NCBI GenBank assembly: GCA_017306415.1 | Contig: JAFKIL010000003.1 | Coordinates: 434,001-498,000 of the forward strand | Reading direction: 5' to 3' | DNA length: 64,000 bases | DNA from: Microbacterium sp. | Lineage (GTDB): Bacteria; Actinomycetota; Actinomycetes; Actinomycetales; Microbacteriaceae | Shown here: one piece after another, positions 4,321 to 26,291 of the stretch | Layout of the letters: every line of letters starts with the position of its first letter | How positions within the stretch are numbered: position 1 is the first letter of the stretch | Made by a program: the position numbers and the translations under genes | Notes under the pieces: generated by a model | Database searches by the model: none | Told to the model about the DNA's origin: nothing | Seen by the model: the letters and a program-made list of their open reading frames with translations, nothing else

Positions 4321-4400
4321 CCGCATCGGCCCAGGCGTACGGTCGAATGCCGTGTCGGTCGCTTCCCGGTGGTAACCACCTCAACGCCAGTCGCGACACC
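4321..4400 (-). ncRNA. ZTP (pfl) riboswitch in the glyA leader
   Basis: Read on the minus strand, the leader has the conserved order of the pfl/ZTP aptamer. A P1 stem has GTGTCG closing with CGACAC. Inside it lie GCGACTGGCG, a GGTGG/CCACC hairpin and CCGGGAAGCGAC. Downstream comes the P3 part with CGCCTGGGC (minus-strand sequence at about 4327-4337). The aptamer starts a few bases after a -10 box, so it is the very 5' end of the transcript. It ends about 35 bases before the glyA ATG, leaving room for control of the ribosome site or of elongation. ZTP riboswitches commonly precede one-carbon and purine genes, including glyA and folD. Confidence 0.9.
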
Positions 4401-4403
4401 CCG

Positions 4404-4409
4404 AGCATA
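4404..4409 (-). promoter_or_regulatory. -10 element of the glyA-folD promoter
   Basis: The minus-strand hexamer TATGCT fits the actinobacterial TANNNT -10 and is placed so that transcription would begin at about 4397, exactly where the ZTP aptamer P1 stem starts. I see no good -35 hexamer 16-19 bases upstream. Confidence 0.6.
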
Positions 4410-21282: not shown

Positions 21283-23094
21283 TCACACGAGGGACTGCCT
21301 CCACGCACTGTGCAGCTGCGCGAACTTGCCCGTCCCGGAGATGAGCGCGTCCGGCGCGTCGTCCTCGATGATCCGGCCGTGCTCCATGACCAGCACGCGG
21401 TCGGCGATCGCCACCGTCGACAGGCGGTGGGCGATGATGATCGCGGTGCGGTCGGCGAGCAGTGTCTGGAGCGCATCCTGGATCTGGCGCTCGCTCGGGA
21501 TGTCGAGCGAGGCCGTCGCCTCGTCCAGGATGAGGACCGCGGGGTCGGCGAGGAACGCGCGCGCGAACGAGATCAGCTGACGCTGCCCCGCCGACACACG
21601 GCCCCCGCGCTTGTTGACATCGGTGTTGTACCCGTCCGGCAGCGCCCGGATGAAGGCATCCGCCCCCACCGCGCGCGCGGCGGCCTCGATCTCGTCGAGC
21701 GTCGCGTCGGGCTTGCCGAGGGCGATGTTGTCGGCGACCGTCCCACTGAACAGGTAGGCCTCCTGCGTGACCATGACGATCGCGCGGCGCAGGTCCTTCG
21801 GGTGGAGGTCTCGCAGGTCCACGCCGTCCAGGCTCACCGTGCCACGCGTCGGGTCGTAGAACCGCGACACCAGCTTCGCCAGCGTCGACTTGCCCGCCCC
21901 GGTCGTGCCGACCAGGGCGATGGTCTCGCCCGCCGGGATGTCCAGCGTGAAGTCGGGCAGGATGACGCGACCCGACCCGTAGGCGAACTCGACGTCCTGG
22001 AAGCGGATGTGCCCCTGCGCCGTCCACAGGTCCACCGGCGTGCCGGGATCCGGGACGGTCGGCTCCTCCTCCAGCACGCCCGACACCTTCTCGAGCGCGG
22101 CCGTGGCCGACTGGTACGAGTTGAGGAACATCGCCACCTCCTCCAGCGGGCTGAAGAAGTTGCGCACGTACAGCACCGCGGCGAGCAGGCTGCCGATGAG
22201 GAGGGTGCCGTCGACGACGCGGAACGCGCCCCACACCAGGACGACCGCCATCGTGATGTTCGCGAGCAGGATGAGGCCGGGGTCGAAGACGCCGTAGAGC
22301 TTCACGAGACGCAGGTTCACGCGGCGGTAGTCCGCCGAGATCTCGCCGAACTCCTCGTCGTTGCGGCGCTCCTTGCGGAACGCCTTCACCGCGCGGACGC
22401 CGGTCATCGTCTCGACGAACTGGACGATCAGGCGCGCGCTCACCACGCGCGACTCGCGGAAGCCCTTCTGCGACTCGAGGTAGAACCAGCGCATCAGGAA
22501 CGTCAGCGGGATCCCCATGGCGATGAGGACGAGACCGCTCTGCCAGTCGAGGAGGAAGAGCGCGGCGAGCGTGAAGACGCCATACAGCGCACCCTGGACG
22601 AGCTGGTTCAGACCGCCGTCCAGGAGCTCGCGGATCGACTCCAGGTCGCTCGTCTGGCGCGAGATGATCCGCCCGGACGTGTACGTCTCGTGGAACTCGA
22701 GGCTCAGCCGCTGGGTGTGGCGGAAGATGCGCGTGCGCAGATCCATCAGGATCGCCTGCGTCAGCCGGGCCGAGAGCACCACGAACCAGCCGATGAGGCC
22801 CGCGCCGATGAGACCGGTGACGATGTACGCGATCGTGACCGCGAACGAGGGCATCCAGTCCGCATACTGCACGGCGCGCGGGAGCGCGGTGTTGATGCCG
22901 TACGCGATGAGCGACGGCCCCAGCACGCGGAGCGCCGTCGAGACGACCACGACGGACGCGGTCAGCACGACGAGCGGGCGCATCGGCCGGATCAGCGATC
23001 CGAGCAGCAGCAGCGAACGGCGCCGGATGGCGCGGCTCTCCGCCTTCGTGTAGTCGTGGCGGTCCTCCCCGCGGGTGCCGATCACGGTGCTCAC
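21283..23094 (-). CDS. Heterodimeric ABC exporter, second half (catalytic NBD)
   Basis: This 603-residue half-transporter has an N-terminal six-helix membrane domain (about 30-330) and a C-terminal ATPase with Walker [10 protein letters not shown], a signature reading VSAGQ instead of LSGGQ, and Walker [14 protein letters not shown] with the catalytic glutamate. With its partner it forms an asymmetric exporter of the TM287/288 or BmrCD kind, probably for drugs or lipids. The GTG start at 23094 overlaps the partner's stop. It shares the leader-controlled transcript starting near 25188. Confidence 0.92.
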
Positions 23095-24905
23095 AGGTTC
23101 ACCTCCCTCTCTCGCTGGCGCAGATCGTCGGCCTCGAGGCTCGAGATCACGTGCCGGTAGTGTTCGCTGTCGCGCAGCAGGTCGCTGTGCGTGCCGACCG
23201 CGGTGATGCGGCCGGCCTCCAGCACCGCCACGCGGTCCGCGAGCGCCACCGTCGACGGACGGTGGGCCACGATGAGCGCGGTGGTGGTGGCGAGGACGCG
23301 CCGCAGCGCCGCCTCGACGAGCGCCTCCGTGTCGACGTCGAGCGCCGACAGCGGGTCGTCGAGCACGAGCACGGCGGGCTTCGCCGCCACCGCGCGGGCG
23401 AGCGCCAGCCGCTGACGCTGACCGCCGGAGAGGCTCAGGCCCTCCTCGCCCACCGCCGTCTCGACGCCGTCGGGCAGCTCGTACGCGAAGTGCGCCTGCG
23501 CGATCTCGAGCGCCTCGTCCAGGACGGCCTGCGCCTCCGGACTGCGCGGGTCGAGGTCGTCGCGGCCGAGCAGCACGTTGTCGCGGACGGACGCCGAGAA
23601 CAGCGTCGCGTCCTCGAAGGCCATCGAGATGTGCCGGCGCAGCTCGTCGAGGCGGAGGTCGCGCACGTCGACGCCGTCGAGCTCCACCGATCCGCCGGTG
23701 ACGTCGTACAGCCGCGTGGGCAGCGTCGTCAGGGTGGTCTTGCCCGACCCGGTCAGACCCACGAGGGCCATCGTCTCCCCCGGCCGCAGCACCAGGTCGA
23801 TGCCGTCGAGGAGGTCGCGTTCGGACTCCGCGGCATCCTGATACCGGAAGCGCGCACCGCGGAACGCGAGCTCGCCCTTCGGCACGGGGATCGTGCGGGG
23901 CTCGTCGGGGTCGACGATGTCGTTCTCCTCGTCGAGCACCTCGAAGACGCGGTCGGTCGCGGTGCGGGCGTCGACCAGGAACGAGAAGAGGAACCCGAGC
24001 GATTCCAGCGGCCACCGCAGCGCCGTGCCCATCGCGAAGAACGCGAACAGCTCGCCCACGGTGATCTGGCGCTGGCTCACGAGCCAGATGCCGAGGAGGA
24101 GGCACAGGGCGAACGCGATCATCGGCACGACCTCGAGCCAGAACCACAGCACGCCGACCTCGCGCGCCTTGCCGAGCTCCGTGGCGCGCAGGGACTCGAC
24201 CTGCCGCGTGAACTTCTGCAGCGCGTGCTTGCCCCGCCCGAACGCCTTCAGCACGCGGATGCCGTGGACGCTCTCCTCGACGGCGGTCGCCAGATCGCCG
24301 GCCTGATCCTGGCTCTGCCGTGCGAGGGTGCCGTAGTTGCGCTCGAACCGGTACCCGAACCACCACAGCGGCGCGGACACCACGAGGAACGTGACGCCCA
24401 GCGCCCAGTGCCAGCGGAACAGCAGCAGCGTCCCCAGGAGCACGGTGAGGACGTTCACGACGAGCAGGATGAGACCGAAGATGAGCCACCGTCGGATCAG
24501 GTTGATGTCCTGCATCATGCGCGACAGCAGCTGACCGGACTGCCACCGGTCGTGGAAGGCGACCGGGAGGCGCTGGAGGCGCCGGTAGAAGCGCTGGCGG
24601 ATCTCGTACTCGACGGCGGTGCCCGGCGTCAGCACGAACGCGCGCCGCAGGTACACGAACAGCGCCTCCAGGACGCCGAGCACGAGCACGCCGGCGGACG
24701 CCCAGACGATGAGCGAGATGTCGCCCGAGGCGATCGGACCGTCGACGGTGGCCTGCAGCACGAGCGGGATGATCAGCGTCATCACGGCGGCCAGGAGCGC
24801 GACGACGAATCCGCCGACCATGCGCGGCAGGACGGGTCTGACGAAGGGGTAGAGGCGGGCGAGAGCCTGGGGAGTGGACAGTCTCGGCGTTGACGAGGAG
24901 CTCAT
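23091..24905 (-). CDS. Heterodimeric ABC exporter, first half (degenerate NBD)
   Basis: This 604-residue half-transporter has six membrane helices (about 20-320) followed by an ATPase with Walker [10 protein letters not shown], canonical signature LSGGQ and Walker [14 protein letters not shown]. Aspartate replaces the catalytic glutamate in Walker B. Together with the partner's altered signature this gives one dead and one live ATP site, the mark of heterodimeric exporters such as BmrCD and TM287/288. The gene lies downstream of a structured leader with a 25-codon reading frame; Bacillus bmrCD is likewise preceded by the leader peptide gene bmrB. Confidence 0.92.
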
Positions 24906-25188
24906 GATCCTTGCGGGGTCGATTGCGGATGCCGCGGACGGCGGAGACGCCGCGCAGGGCGACGCGAAGGGGGGCGCCGGAGGACGCCGGACGGCAGTGG
25001 TCTGGACGGAAGCAGGCGGACGTCTGTCCGCGATCGGAACGGGTCCGGGTCTACCCCTGGGAGACGTGCGCCTCGCCGGCGATCGGAAGGAAGGCGACCG
25101 GCTTGGCTGTGACGACGGCCTGGTACATGGCTTCCTCCTCGGATCGTGGAACAGTGTCTGTCGTCCGCGGCGGACCTCGAGGCGACAG
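24906..25188 (-). promoter_or_regulatory. Structured leader of the ABC exporter operon
   Basis: This is the 5' untranslated region of the exporter mRNA. The first 31 bases (25158-25188) can fold into a hairpin with outer stem CTGTCG/CGACAG and inner stem TCCGC/GCGGA. The leader peptide frame follows at 25051-25128. A GCGGAC/GTCCGC hairpin with a 4-base loop lies at 25016-25031, 20 bases past the leader stop. Further GC-rich complementary stretches (for example GGCG/CGCC pairs around 24974-24989) follow. Alternative pairings between these could control read-through or ribosome access. Confidence 0.5.
25051..25128 (-). CDS. Candidate 25-residue leader peptide upstream of the ABC exporter
   Basis: The minus-strand frame ATG 25128 to TAG 25051 encodes [20 protein letters not shown] followed by HVSQG. 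It has one of the best ribosome sites in the window, GAGGAGGAAGCC directly before the ATG. It sits about 60 bases after the predicted start of transcription and about 145 bases before the exporter gene. Between it and the exporter are hairpin-forming segments. The layout (promoter, structured 5' end, short well-initiated ORF, structured spacer, ABC genes) is that of a ribosome-sensing attenuator. No homologue search was possible, so translation is inferred only from the initiation signal. Confidence 0.55.
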
Positions 25189-25194
25189 CCCTCC

Positions 25195-25224
25195 AGCCTA
25201 TCCCTGGGCGTTTGCTGAAAGCAA
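25195..25224 (-). promoter_or_regulatory. Promoter of the ABC exporter leader
   Basis: On the minus strand TTGCTT (25219-25224), an 18-base spacer and TAGGCT (25195-25200) give a good sigma-A-like promoter. Transcription would start near 25188, the first base of the leader hairpin. Confidence 0.65.
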
Positions 25225-25253
25225 GGCCGAGTCGGAGATCCGCCCCGCGGGGT

Positions 25254-26291
25254 TCACGGCCGGGCGACGACGATGCCCGCAGGCTGCGGGCCGTCCATCC
25301 CCACGAGCGCGTCGATGGCGCCATCGAGGTCGACGACCGAGCCGACGAGCCGGGACGGATCGAGCCGTCCCGACGCGACCAGCTCGAGCAGCGGGCCGTA
25401 GTCGGCCGCGGCCATGCCGTGCGATCCGTACACCTCCAGCTCCCACGCGATCACCCGGTCCCACGGCAGGGGCGCGGAGGCCGCAGCCCCCAGCATCAGC
25501 CCGACCTGCACATGACGACCACGGCGCCGGAGACTGCGCACGGCCGCATCCGCGGTCGCCGCCGATCCGAGCGCGTCGATCGAGACGTGGGCCCCGCCGC
25601 CGGTCGCGGCGCGGACCTCCTCCGACGCGTCACCCGAGCGGATCGTGACGGATGCGCCGAGCTCGCGGGCGCGCTCCAGGGCGGCGTCGGACAGATCCAC
25701 CGCCGTCACCCGCGCGCCCAGCGCCACGGCCACCATGACGGCCGACAGACCCACTCCCCCGCATCCGAACACCACGACCTCGTCTCCGGCGCGCACGCGC
25801 GCGTGGGCGGTGACCGCGCGGAACGCGGTCGCGAAGCGGCAGCCGAGCGAGGCGGCGGTGACGGCATCCACCCCGTCGGGCAGGGCGACGAGGTTGAGGT
25901 CGGCCGCGCGGACGACGACGTACTCGGCGAACGACCCGGCGTGCGTGAAGCCCGGCTGGGTCTGGTCGGGGCAGACCTGCGCGTCACCGGCGGCGCACCA
26001 CTCGCAGCGGCCGCAGCCGTTCACGAACGGCGCCGTCACGCGCGCGCCGACCGCGAAGTCCCGGACGAGGGGGCCCGTGACCGCGACGACTCCGGCGAAC
26101 TCGTGCCCGGGCACGTGCGGCAGGGCGACCGGATCGTGCCCGCGCCACGCGTGCCAGTCGGAGCGGCACACACCCGTCGCCTCGACCCACACGATCGCGC
26201 CGTCAGCGGGGCATTCCGGGCGCGGGACCTCGCGGATCCCGGGCCGCTCACCCACCGCGTCGTACACGACAGCCCGCATCGATCCGCTCAT
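25254..26291 (-). CDS. Zinc-dependent medium-chain alcohol dehydrogenase
   Basis: This 345-residue MDR enzyme has catalytic zinc ligands in GVCRSDWHAW and PHVPGHEFAGVV, the structural zinc motif GCGRCEWCAAGDAQVC, and the NAD(P) Rossmann segment VVVFGCGGVGLSAVM near residue 175. It resembles alcohol dehydrogenases of the AdhA/threonine dehydrogenase-like branch; the substrate cannot be told. The start at 26291 has GGAGGG directly upstream; a second in-frame ATG four codons later is possible. It is monocistronic as far as can be seen, between the exporter leader and ogt. Confidence 0.9.
   Translation of the reverse strand: MSGSMRAVVYDAVGERPGIREVPRPECPADGAIVWVEATGVCRSDWHAWRGHDPVALPHVPGHEFAGVVAVTGPLVRDFAVGARVTAPFVNGCGRCEWCAAGDAQVCPDQTQPGFTHAGSFAEYVVVRAADLNLVALPDGVDAVTAASLGCRFATAFRAVTAHARVRAGDEVVVFGCGGVGLSAVMVAVALGARVTAVDLSDAALERARELGASVTIRSGDASEEVRAATGGGAHVSIDALGSAATADAAVRSLRRRGRHVQVGLMLGAAASAPLPWDRVIAWELEVYGSHGMAAADYGPLLELVASGRLDPSRLVGSVVDLDGAIDALVGMDGPQPAGIVVARP

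Follow-up and report, generated by a model that had tools for sequence, protein, structure and literature searches.

A conserved leader ORF upstream of a heterodimeric ABC exporter in Microbacteriaceae, possibly part of a ribosome-dependent attenuator

The control region of a two-gene ABC exporter operon in a Microbacterium sp. carries a short open reading frame (ORF) with a strong ribosome-binding site, and sequence comparison indicates that this leader ORF goes far back in Microbacteriaceae and is hardly seen outside the family in a small sample. The conserved ORF may link expression of the pump to the state of the ribosome, and we tentatively favor, with somewhat less than even confidence, a ribosome-dependent, Rho-type attenuator of the exporter operon in which the peptide sequence would be largely free. 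The window referred to here is the whole stretch of 64,000 nucleotides that was analyzed. Within it the entire leader module lies on the minus strand, upstream of the two ABC genes, as follows.

25219..25224, minus strand: -35 element TTGCTT, read from the sequence
Between TTGCTT and TAGGCT, minus strand: promoter spacer of 18 nt, read from the sequence
25195..25200, minus strand: -10 element TAGGCT, placed in the window sequence
25182..25195, minus strand: conserved box TGGAGGGCTGTCGC over the discriminator and the predicted transcription start, from the search for TAnnnT plus box
25158..25188, minus strand: predicted hairpin at the 5' end of the transcript, CTGTCG...CGACAG, pairing compared with shuffles
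25134..25140, minus strand: ribosome-binding site of the leader ORF, GAGGAGG, with AGGAGG-type sites in relatives
25051..25128, minus strand: leader ORF, 25 codons plus TAG, ATG at 25128, position kept across genus and family
25043..25057, minus strand: 5' arm GGGGTAGACCCGGAC of a possible stop-codon helix, minimum-energy fold
24906..25050, minus strand: untranslated spacer of 145 nt, C-rich and G-poor (rut-like) by its C over G skew
25016..25031, minus strand: hairpin GCGGAC-AGAC-GTCCGC, 19 nt past the TAG of the ORF, equaled by 17% of shuffles
24979..24992, minus strand: 3' arm GTCCGGCGTCCTCC of the possible stop-codon helix, minimum-energy fold
24908..24912, minus strand: ribosome-binding site of exporter subunit 1, AAGGA, placed in the window sequence
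23091..24905, minus strand: ABC exporter subunit 1, 604 aa, ATG at 24905, Walker B region LVLDD, degenerate site
21283..23094, minus strand: ABC exporter subunit 2, 603 aa, with a GTG start that overlaps subunit 1 at its end

The original prediction covered 25016-25224, that is, the -35 element through the end of the post-stop hairpin, and its layout is borne out. The promoter TTGCTT-N18-TAGGCT, the 5'-end hairpin, the 25-codon frame and the GAGGAGG site were all located on the minus strand, the hairpin claimed about 20 bases past the stop is present 19 nt after the TAG, and the heterodimeric exporter genes begin 145 nt past the leader ORF stop, as claimed.

By their motifs the two ABC proteins are a heterodimeric exporter. 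Subunit 1 reads LVLDD where the catalytic glutamate is expected, together with a canonical LSGGQ, and subunit 2 reads LDE and VSAGQ; we take the LVLDD of subunit 1 to signify one degenerate ATP site. A sequence search of solved structures matched TM_0288 to subunit 1 at 2e-82 over 7-587. TM287/TM288 resembles the exporter of the window in being a heterodimeric bacterial ABC exporter with one degenerate ATP site, although the best solved matches of subunit 1 are P-glycoprotein-type full transporters (among the best 60 of 117). Among the matches listed for NCBIfam (25 models per subunit), all fell below the curated cut-offs. The GTG start of subunit 2 and the stop codon of subunit 1 overlap (23094-23091), so the subunits are probably translationally coupled. 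An exporter match was present in 148 of 149 genomes of the genus, 102 of 120 of the family and 40 of 119 of the order (E 1e-150 or better); found in almost every genome of the genus and in most of those of the family, the exporter is thus more readily seen as a core pump than as an acquired resistance gene.

The leader ORF was sought as an ATG ORF of 12-60 codons with a strong Shine-Dalgarno (SD) site, at most 400 nt upstream of the exporter, and expectations were taken from shuffles of two-base blocks. Such an ORF was found in 62 of the 78 Microbacterium regions long enough for the test (1.0 expected), in 38 of 60 regions from other genera of Microbacteriaceae (0.9 expected), in 12 of 17 named regions (0.3 expected) and in one of 20 regions from other families (0.3 expected). 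The counts, far above the shuffles in the genus and in the family, argue that the ORF is old in Microbacteriaceae. A box search recovered a leader ORF, further upstream or with a GTG start, in three of the 16 genus misses (L054, L061 and L072). The named set holds 21 loci, two of them distant (L020 and L021); 17 of the remaining 19 were compared, and L004 and L013 were left out because they have almost no upstream DNA. When the leader DNA was searched in 149 genus genomes, 77 matched, many only over short stretches, and the 29 best matches besides the window's own all lay upstream of the exporter. The genus sample consisted of 80 of the 118 exporter places remaining once these 29 had been removed, and was therefore biased against the leader; the other genera of the family were represented by 60 of 100 places and the other families by 20 of 32. 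The original prediction had staked itself on conservation in close relatives, and the start, the ribosome site and the promoter are all kept there; the peptide shows only partial likeness among members of the genus and differs in other genera.

In the genus and named sets, leaders with the ORF measured 189-457 nt (median 271, n = 85) and those without it 28-99 nt (n = 15, some starts approximate), an association that is partly built in because an ORF needs room; 39 of the 128 ORF-bearing sequences were left out of these length-type counts, their exporter start not being recognized by the pattern. The leader thus has what a leader-ORF attenuator should have, a short ORF with a ribosome site lying between promoter and gene and kept in position. 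A literature search, which had most subscription papers outside its reach, found no description of this Microbacteriaceae leader among the papers listed.

Substitutions within the ORF are distributed nearly evenly over the three codon positions, both in 63 nearest pairs (239, 250 and 256) and in the 25 pairs for which exporter sequence was at hand (89, 98 and 101 in 602 codons), as against 249, 172 and 771 in 3263 codons of the exporter gene in the same 25 pairs; the rates by codon position are 0.15, 0.16 and 0.17 for the ORF and 0.08, 0.05 and 0.24 for the exporter. ORF codons with a single difference were synonymous in 138 of 398 cases (35%), compared with 29% for random changes. The exporter control behaves as expected, and the leader peptide is, on this measure, under almost no coding constraint. 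Change per codon position is about 0.11, 0.11 and 0.10 in codons 2-11 and 0.20, 0.20 and 0.22 in the remaining codons, and identity is 0.88 in codons 1-11, 0.62 in the 5' UTR, 0.66 in the spacer and 0.87 in the exporter gene. The conservation of codons 1-11 looks like a nucleotide-level need of the initiation region, or like something not yet recognized. These data bear on the idea that a small functional protein is produced from the ORF along with the pump, for which one could cite the kept position of the ORF and an N-terminal pattern common to part of the genus; we regard this as very improbable, since the ORF substitutions are nearly flat beside those of the exporter and the peptides listed for other genera look unrelated. 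The pattern, M-x-Q-A-h-h-x-[TA]-K-[PTS], is largely common to a subset of 44 genus ORFs selected by their K at codon 9, a selection that makes this K invariant. Among 140 unique leader peptides, +X+ occurs in 37% (26% in shuffles), [RK]P in 59% (24% in shuffles) and PP in 2% (14% in shuffles); because shared ancestry inflates such frequencies, we name no drug from these stall motifs.

The spacer between the ORF and the exporter is rich in C and poor in G. Its mean C over G skew is 0.30 in the genus, where 61 of 64 spacers exceed 0.2, and 0.26 in other genera, where 35 of 44 do so, and its median length is 120 nt and 180 nt, respectively. The spacer of the window, at 0.27, tops the 26 upstream intergenic regions that are 110 nt or longer (their mean is 0.04, from rough gene calls), and 0.7% of background stretches of 133 nt reach this value. 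The exporter gene has an equal or greater skew over its first 150 nt (0.30 in the genus, 0.35 in the named set and 0.43 in the window), and gene starts in the window have a mean of 0.03. A C-rich, G-poor untranslated stretch past the ORF is the feature looked for in a Rho-dependent leader and is present here, and promoter, ORF with strong ribosome site and long C-rich spacer recur together. C-richness is only suggestive as a sign of Rho termination.

An intrinsic terminator after the ORF, opposed by an antiterminator and read through when a stalled ribosome favors it, would be the logic of bmrB or whiB7. It has the hairpin 19 nt past the stop in its favor, and across relatives 32 of 107 genus, named and window leaders (about 11 expected) and 5 of 21 leaders of other genera have a best post-stop hairpin that ranks in the top tenth of shuffles; for the window alone, the hairpin is not significant, 17% of shuffles equaling it. 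An [AG]CGTT box occurs in 52 of 107 leaders as against 11% in shuffles, and among the 50 distinct box-bearing leaders, 19 pairings of the box with the stop region and 21 with downstream RNA ranked in the top tenth of shuffles, about 5 being expected for each. A compensatory change in the downstream hairpin between L080 and L086 points the same way, and bmrB itself is a precedent (PMC4191407, in part). Against these observations, a scan of 24600-25700, which would miss terminators without a T-run, gave no terminator-like site; unbiased pairing between the stop region and downstream RNA reached p<=0.1 in 9 of 102 sequences of the genus set and 3 of 44 from other genera, which is chance level; for either box pairing, the arms native to a leader did better than the median of arms taken from other species in only 28 of 50 cases; and the window leader folds like its shuffles (z 0.10 for the whole, -0.04 for the stop region). 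The possible helix over the stop codon in the window likewise pairs no better than shuffles. We therefore consider the bmrB- or whiB7-like reading unlikely. A general switch over the stop codon by way of the GCGTT-type box is not supported and was kept only as a rival reading, being favored by the anchored test in part of the genus and standing at 9 of 102 in the unbiased one; a stop-codon switch confined to subclades may exist.

Translation attenuation, in which RNA structure would mask the exporter ribosome site until a stalled ribosome freed it, has its classical precedent in erm-type leaders. The upstream ORF toiL offers another, according to part of the account in PMC12121999. In predicted foldings of 83 leaders, though, the exporter ribosome site had an unpaired probability of 0.70, compared with 0.63 when the leaders were shuffled (five shuffles each), and it lay below its control in only 23. 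A masked exporter ribosome site is thus disfavored, the site being predicted to be more open than with shuffled leaders, and we hold this mechanism to be distinctly unlikely. With no terminator-like site in the scan, pairing at chance, an almost unconstrained peptide and an exporter site predicted to be open, the specific bmrB logic of the original prediction is not supported, nor is its description of the spacer as structured, given z values of 0.10 and -0.04.

No match at gathering score was found in the window leader with Rfam 15, and two matches in six relatives were both below that score. Elsewhere in the window, at 4322-4404 on the minus strand, a ZMP/ZTP riboswitch scores 48.9 bits against an Rfam gathering score of 39.

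The C-rich spacer, the lack of a terminator-like site in the scan and the predicted openness of the exporter site favor, as far as composition can, Rho over an intrinsic terminator or SD masking. Likewise, the lack of a general conserved fold together with the near absence of coding constraint fits a translating ribosome followed by naked C-rich RNA. In the Rho-type attenuator that we tentatively prefer, RNA polymerase that has passed the leader ORF would make about 145 nt of untranslated, C-rich and G-poor RNA, Rho would load on this spacer, and many transcripts would end before the exporter or early within it. Were the ribosomes on the leader ORF to slow or stall, through translation inhibitors or other translation stress, the stalled ribosome, or the RNA shape that it imposes, would keep Rho off and the exporter would be made; the position of the ribosome would matter and the peptide sequence would matter little. 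The weak point of this scheme is that a ribosome stalled in the middle of the ORF would leave the spacer uncovered, so that the block to Rho is not accounted for. In Escherichia coli tnaC, a stalled ribosome shields a Rho site. Two further observations weigh on the Rho-type attenuator: the GCGTT-type box pairings exceed shuffles and so hint that part of the genus may have a structural switch, which counts against it, and an unseen sequence requirement is possible because codons 1-11 show exporter-like identity and the ORF a slight synonymous excess.

A leader without sensing, whose 5' hairpin and ORF would protect the mRNA or aid expression constitutively, would account for the strong ribosome site, the drifting peptide and a 5'-end hairpin that exceeds shuffles: over 128 leaders, pairing takes in 8.1 of the first 10 nt, compared with 6.4 when the rest is shuffled, with a mean z of -1.5 and 73 leaders below -1. 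It would not so easily account for retention of the ORF across many genera or for the median spacer lengths, which lie far beyond the 10-11 bp spacing at which leader genes peak in the part of a reinitiation survey available to us (PMC4833913), and we think it rather doubtful.

Of the known systems, bmrB of the bmrCD operon in Bacillus subtilis is closest in the genes controlled, an ORF preceding a heterodimeric ABC exporter operon as in the window. In the available text of PMC4191407, bmrB has a terminator-like intrinsic structure inside its coding region, with antiterminator forms; the window leader, by contrast, is without a terminator-like site and without general alternative pairing. The nearest actinobacterial drug-responsive case that we met is the upstream ORF of whiB7/wblC, reported as a sensor of several classes of ribosome-targeting drugs (PMC12121999 and PMC13236596, each in part) and drawn with a regulatory hairpin in the latter. 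Like the window leader it is actinobacterial, but it controls a transcription factor where the window leader precedes an exporter. The upstream ORF toiL of topAI-yjhQ in Escherichia coli is described in the same partial source (PMC12121999) as linked to Rho-dependent termination of the gene downstream and responsive to at least five drug classes, which act at different positions of the ORF, the downstream ribosome site being masked; in the window the exporter site instead appears open. The upstream ORF cruR (bp2923) of Bordetella pertussis, according to sections of PMC9426467, combines a C>G bubble with Rho-dependent termination ahead of the following gene, and its copper sensing relies on CXXC and a RAPP motif at the C terminus. 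The exporter leader peptides differ in that cysteine makes up only 0.3% of their residues and R.?A[GP]P occurs in 6 of 96 in the genus (1.1 expected) and in none of 44 in other genera. As far as these partial sources go, toiL and cruR indicate that upstream ORFs can act together with Rho. If the Microbacteriaceae leader does read the state of the ribosome with no conserved stall peptide, it would represent a simple and easily overlooked way of sensing translation inhibitors in high-GC bacteria, and most members would escape searches that look for leader peptides through sequence conservation.

About a third of the Microbacterium leaders compared (35 rows, L007-L126) carry in the spacer after the ORF a pair of boxes at fixed distance. 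GGCAT[AG] and [AG]CGTT stand exactly 15 nt apart, gapless, in 35 of the 38 distinct genus sequences that hold both, in a search that allowed other distances. In 12 genomes chosen for box-holding leaders, the strict pattern was counted 12 times: 11 genomes have it once in this leader, one of those 11 has a further copy elsewhere, and the G046 genome has none; a reversed control pattern occurs 4 times in the same 12 genomes. The window lacks GGCAT[AG]-N15-[AG]CGTT, as do 43 of 44 leaders of other genera. As a covarying stem, the GCAT hairpin (35 gap-free rows) was supported in part and not adopted: 68.6% of cells pair, a share that is 63.1% in shuffles and is reached by 4 of 500 of them, and the covariation score is likewise high, being reached by 5 of 500. 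Neither the pairs changed on both sides (152 of 500 shuffles) nor the pair types (322 of 500 shuffles) stand out in this way. A broader reading would have a family-wide sensor of translation stress that reads ribosome traffic rather than the peptide, the ORF keeping its start, ribosome site and rough length as the peptide drifts, Rho acting on the C-rich spacer, and the paired boxes forming a new, locus-specific element, as RNA or DNA, that times or blocks termination; this we judge rather unlikely. One genus member, L102, seems to have lost the leader ORF and to have kept the GCATA...GCGTT stretch near the transcription start.

The promoter is shared by all 107 leader-bearing genus, named and window sequences, with TTG 18 nt (100 sequences) or 17 nt (7 sequences) upstream of the -10 element in a search that required TAnnnT and allowed spacers of 16-19 nt; the -10 is TAGGCT in 50 of the 107 and another TAnnnT in the rest, as the pattern demands. 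A strict scan for the sigma-70 consensus listed no promoter at the leader. TAnnnT followed by the box, with at most five mismatches, was found in 148 of 167 upstream sequences, the weakest of which may be chance matches, and 20 of the 148 have the box without a leader ORF. Because the box occurs in sequences that lack the ORF as well, its role may lie with the promoter or with a protein and not with the ORF. The genome of the window holds one exact copy of TAnnnTGGAGGGCTGTC, and a genome-wide promoter motif was rejected, counts at up to three mismatches (65 and 71) being below those of the control (82 and 80). A leaderless CTG start at the box was dropped because box-to-ORF distances vary. In four divergent genus members without the leader ORF (L120, L121, L122 and L124), the box forms one arm of an inverted repeat across the -10 element, matching at 13-16 of 16 bases and resembling a repressor operator; an inverted repeat over the -10 at p<=0.05 occurs in 4 of 20 promoters without the ORF and in 1 of 128 with it.
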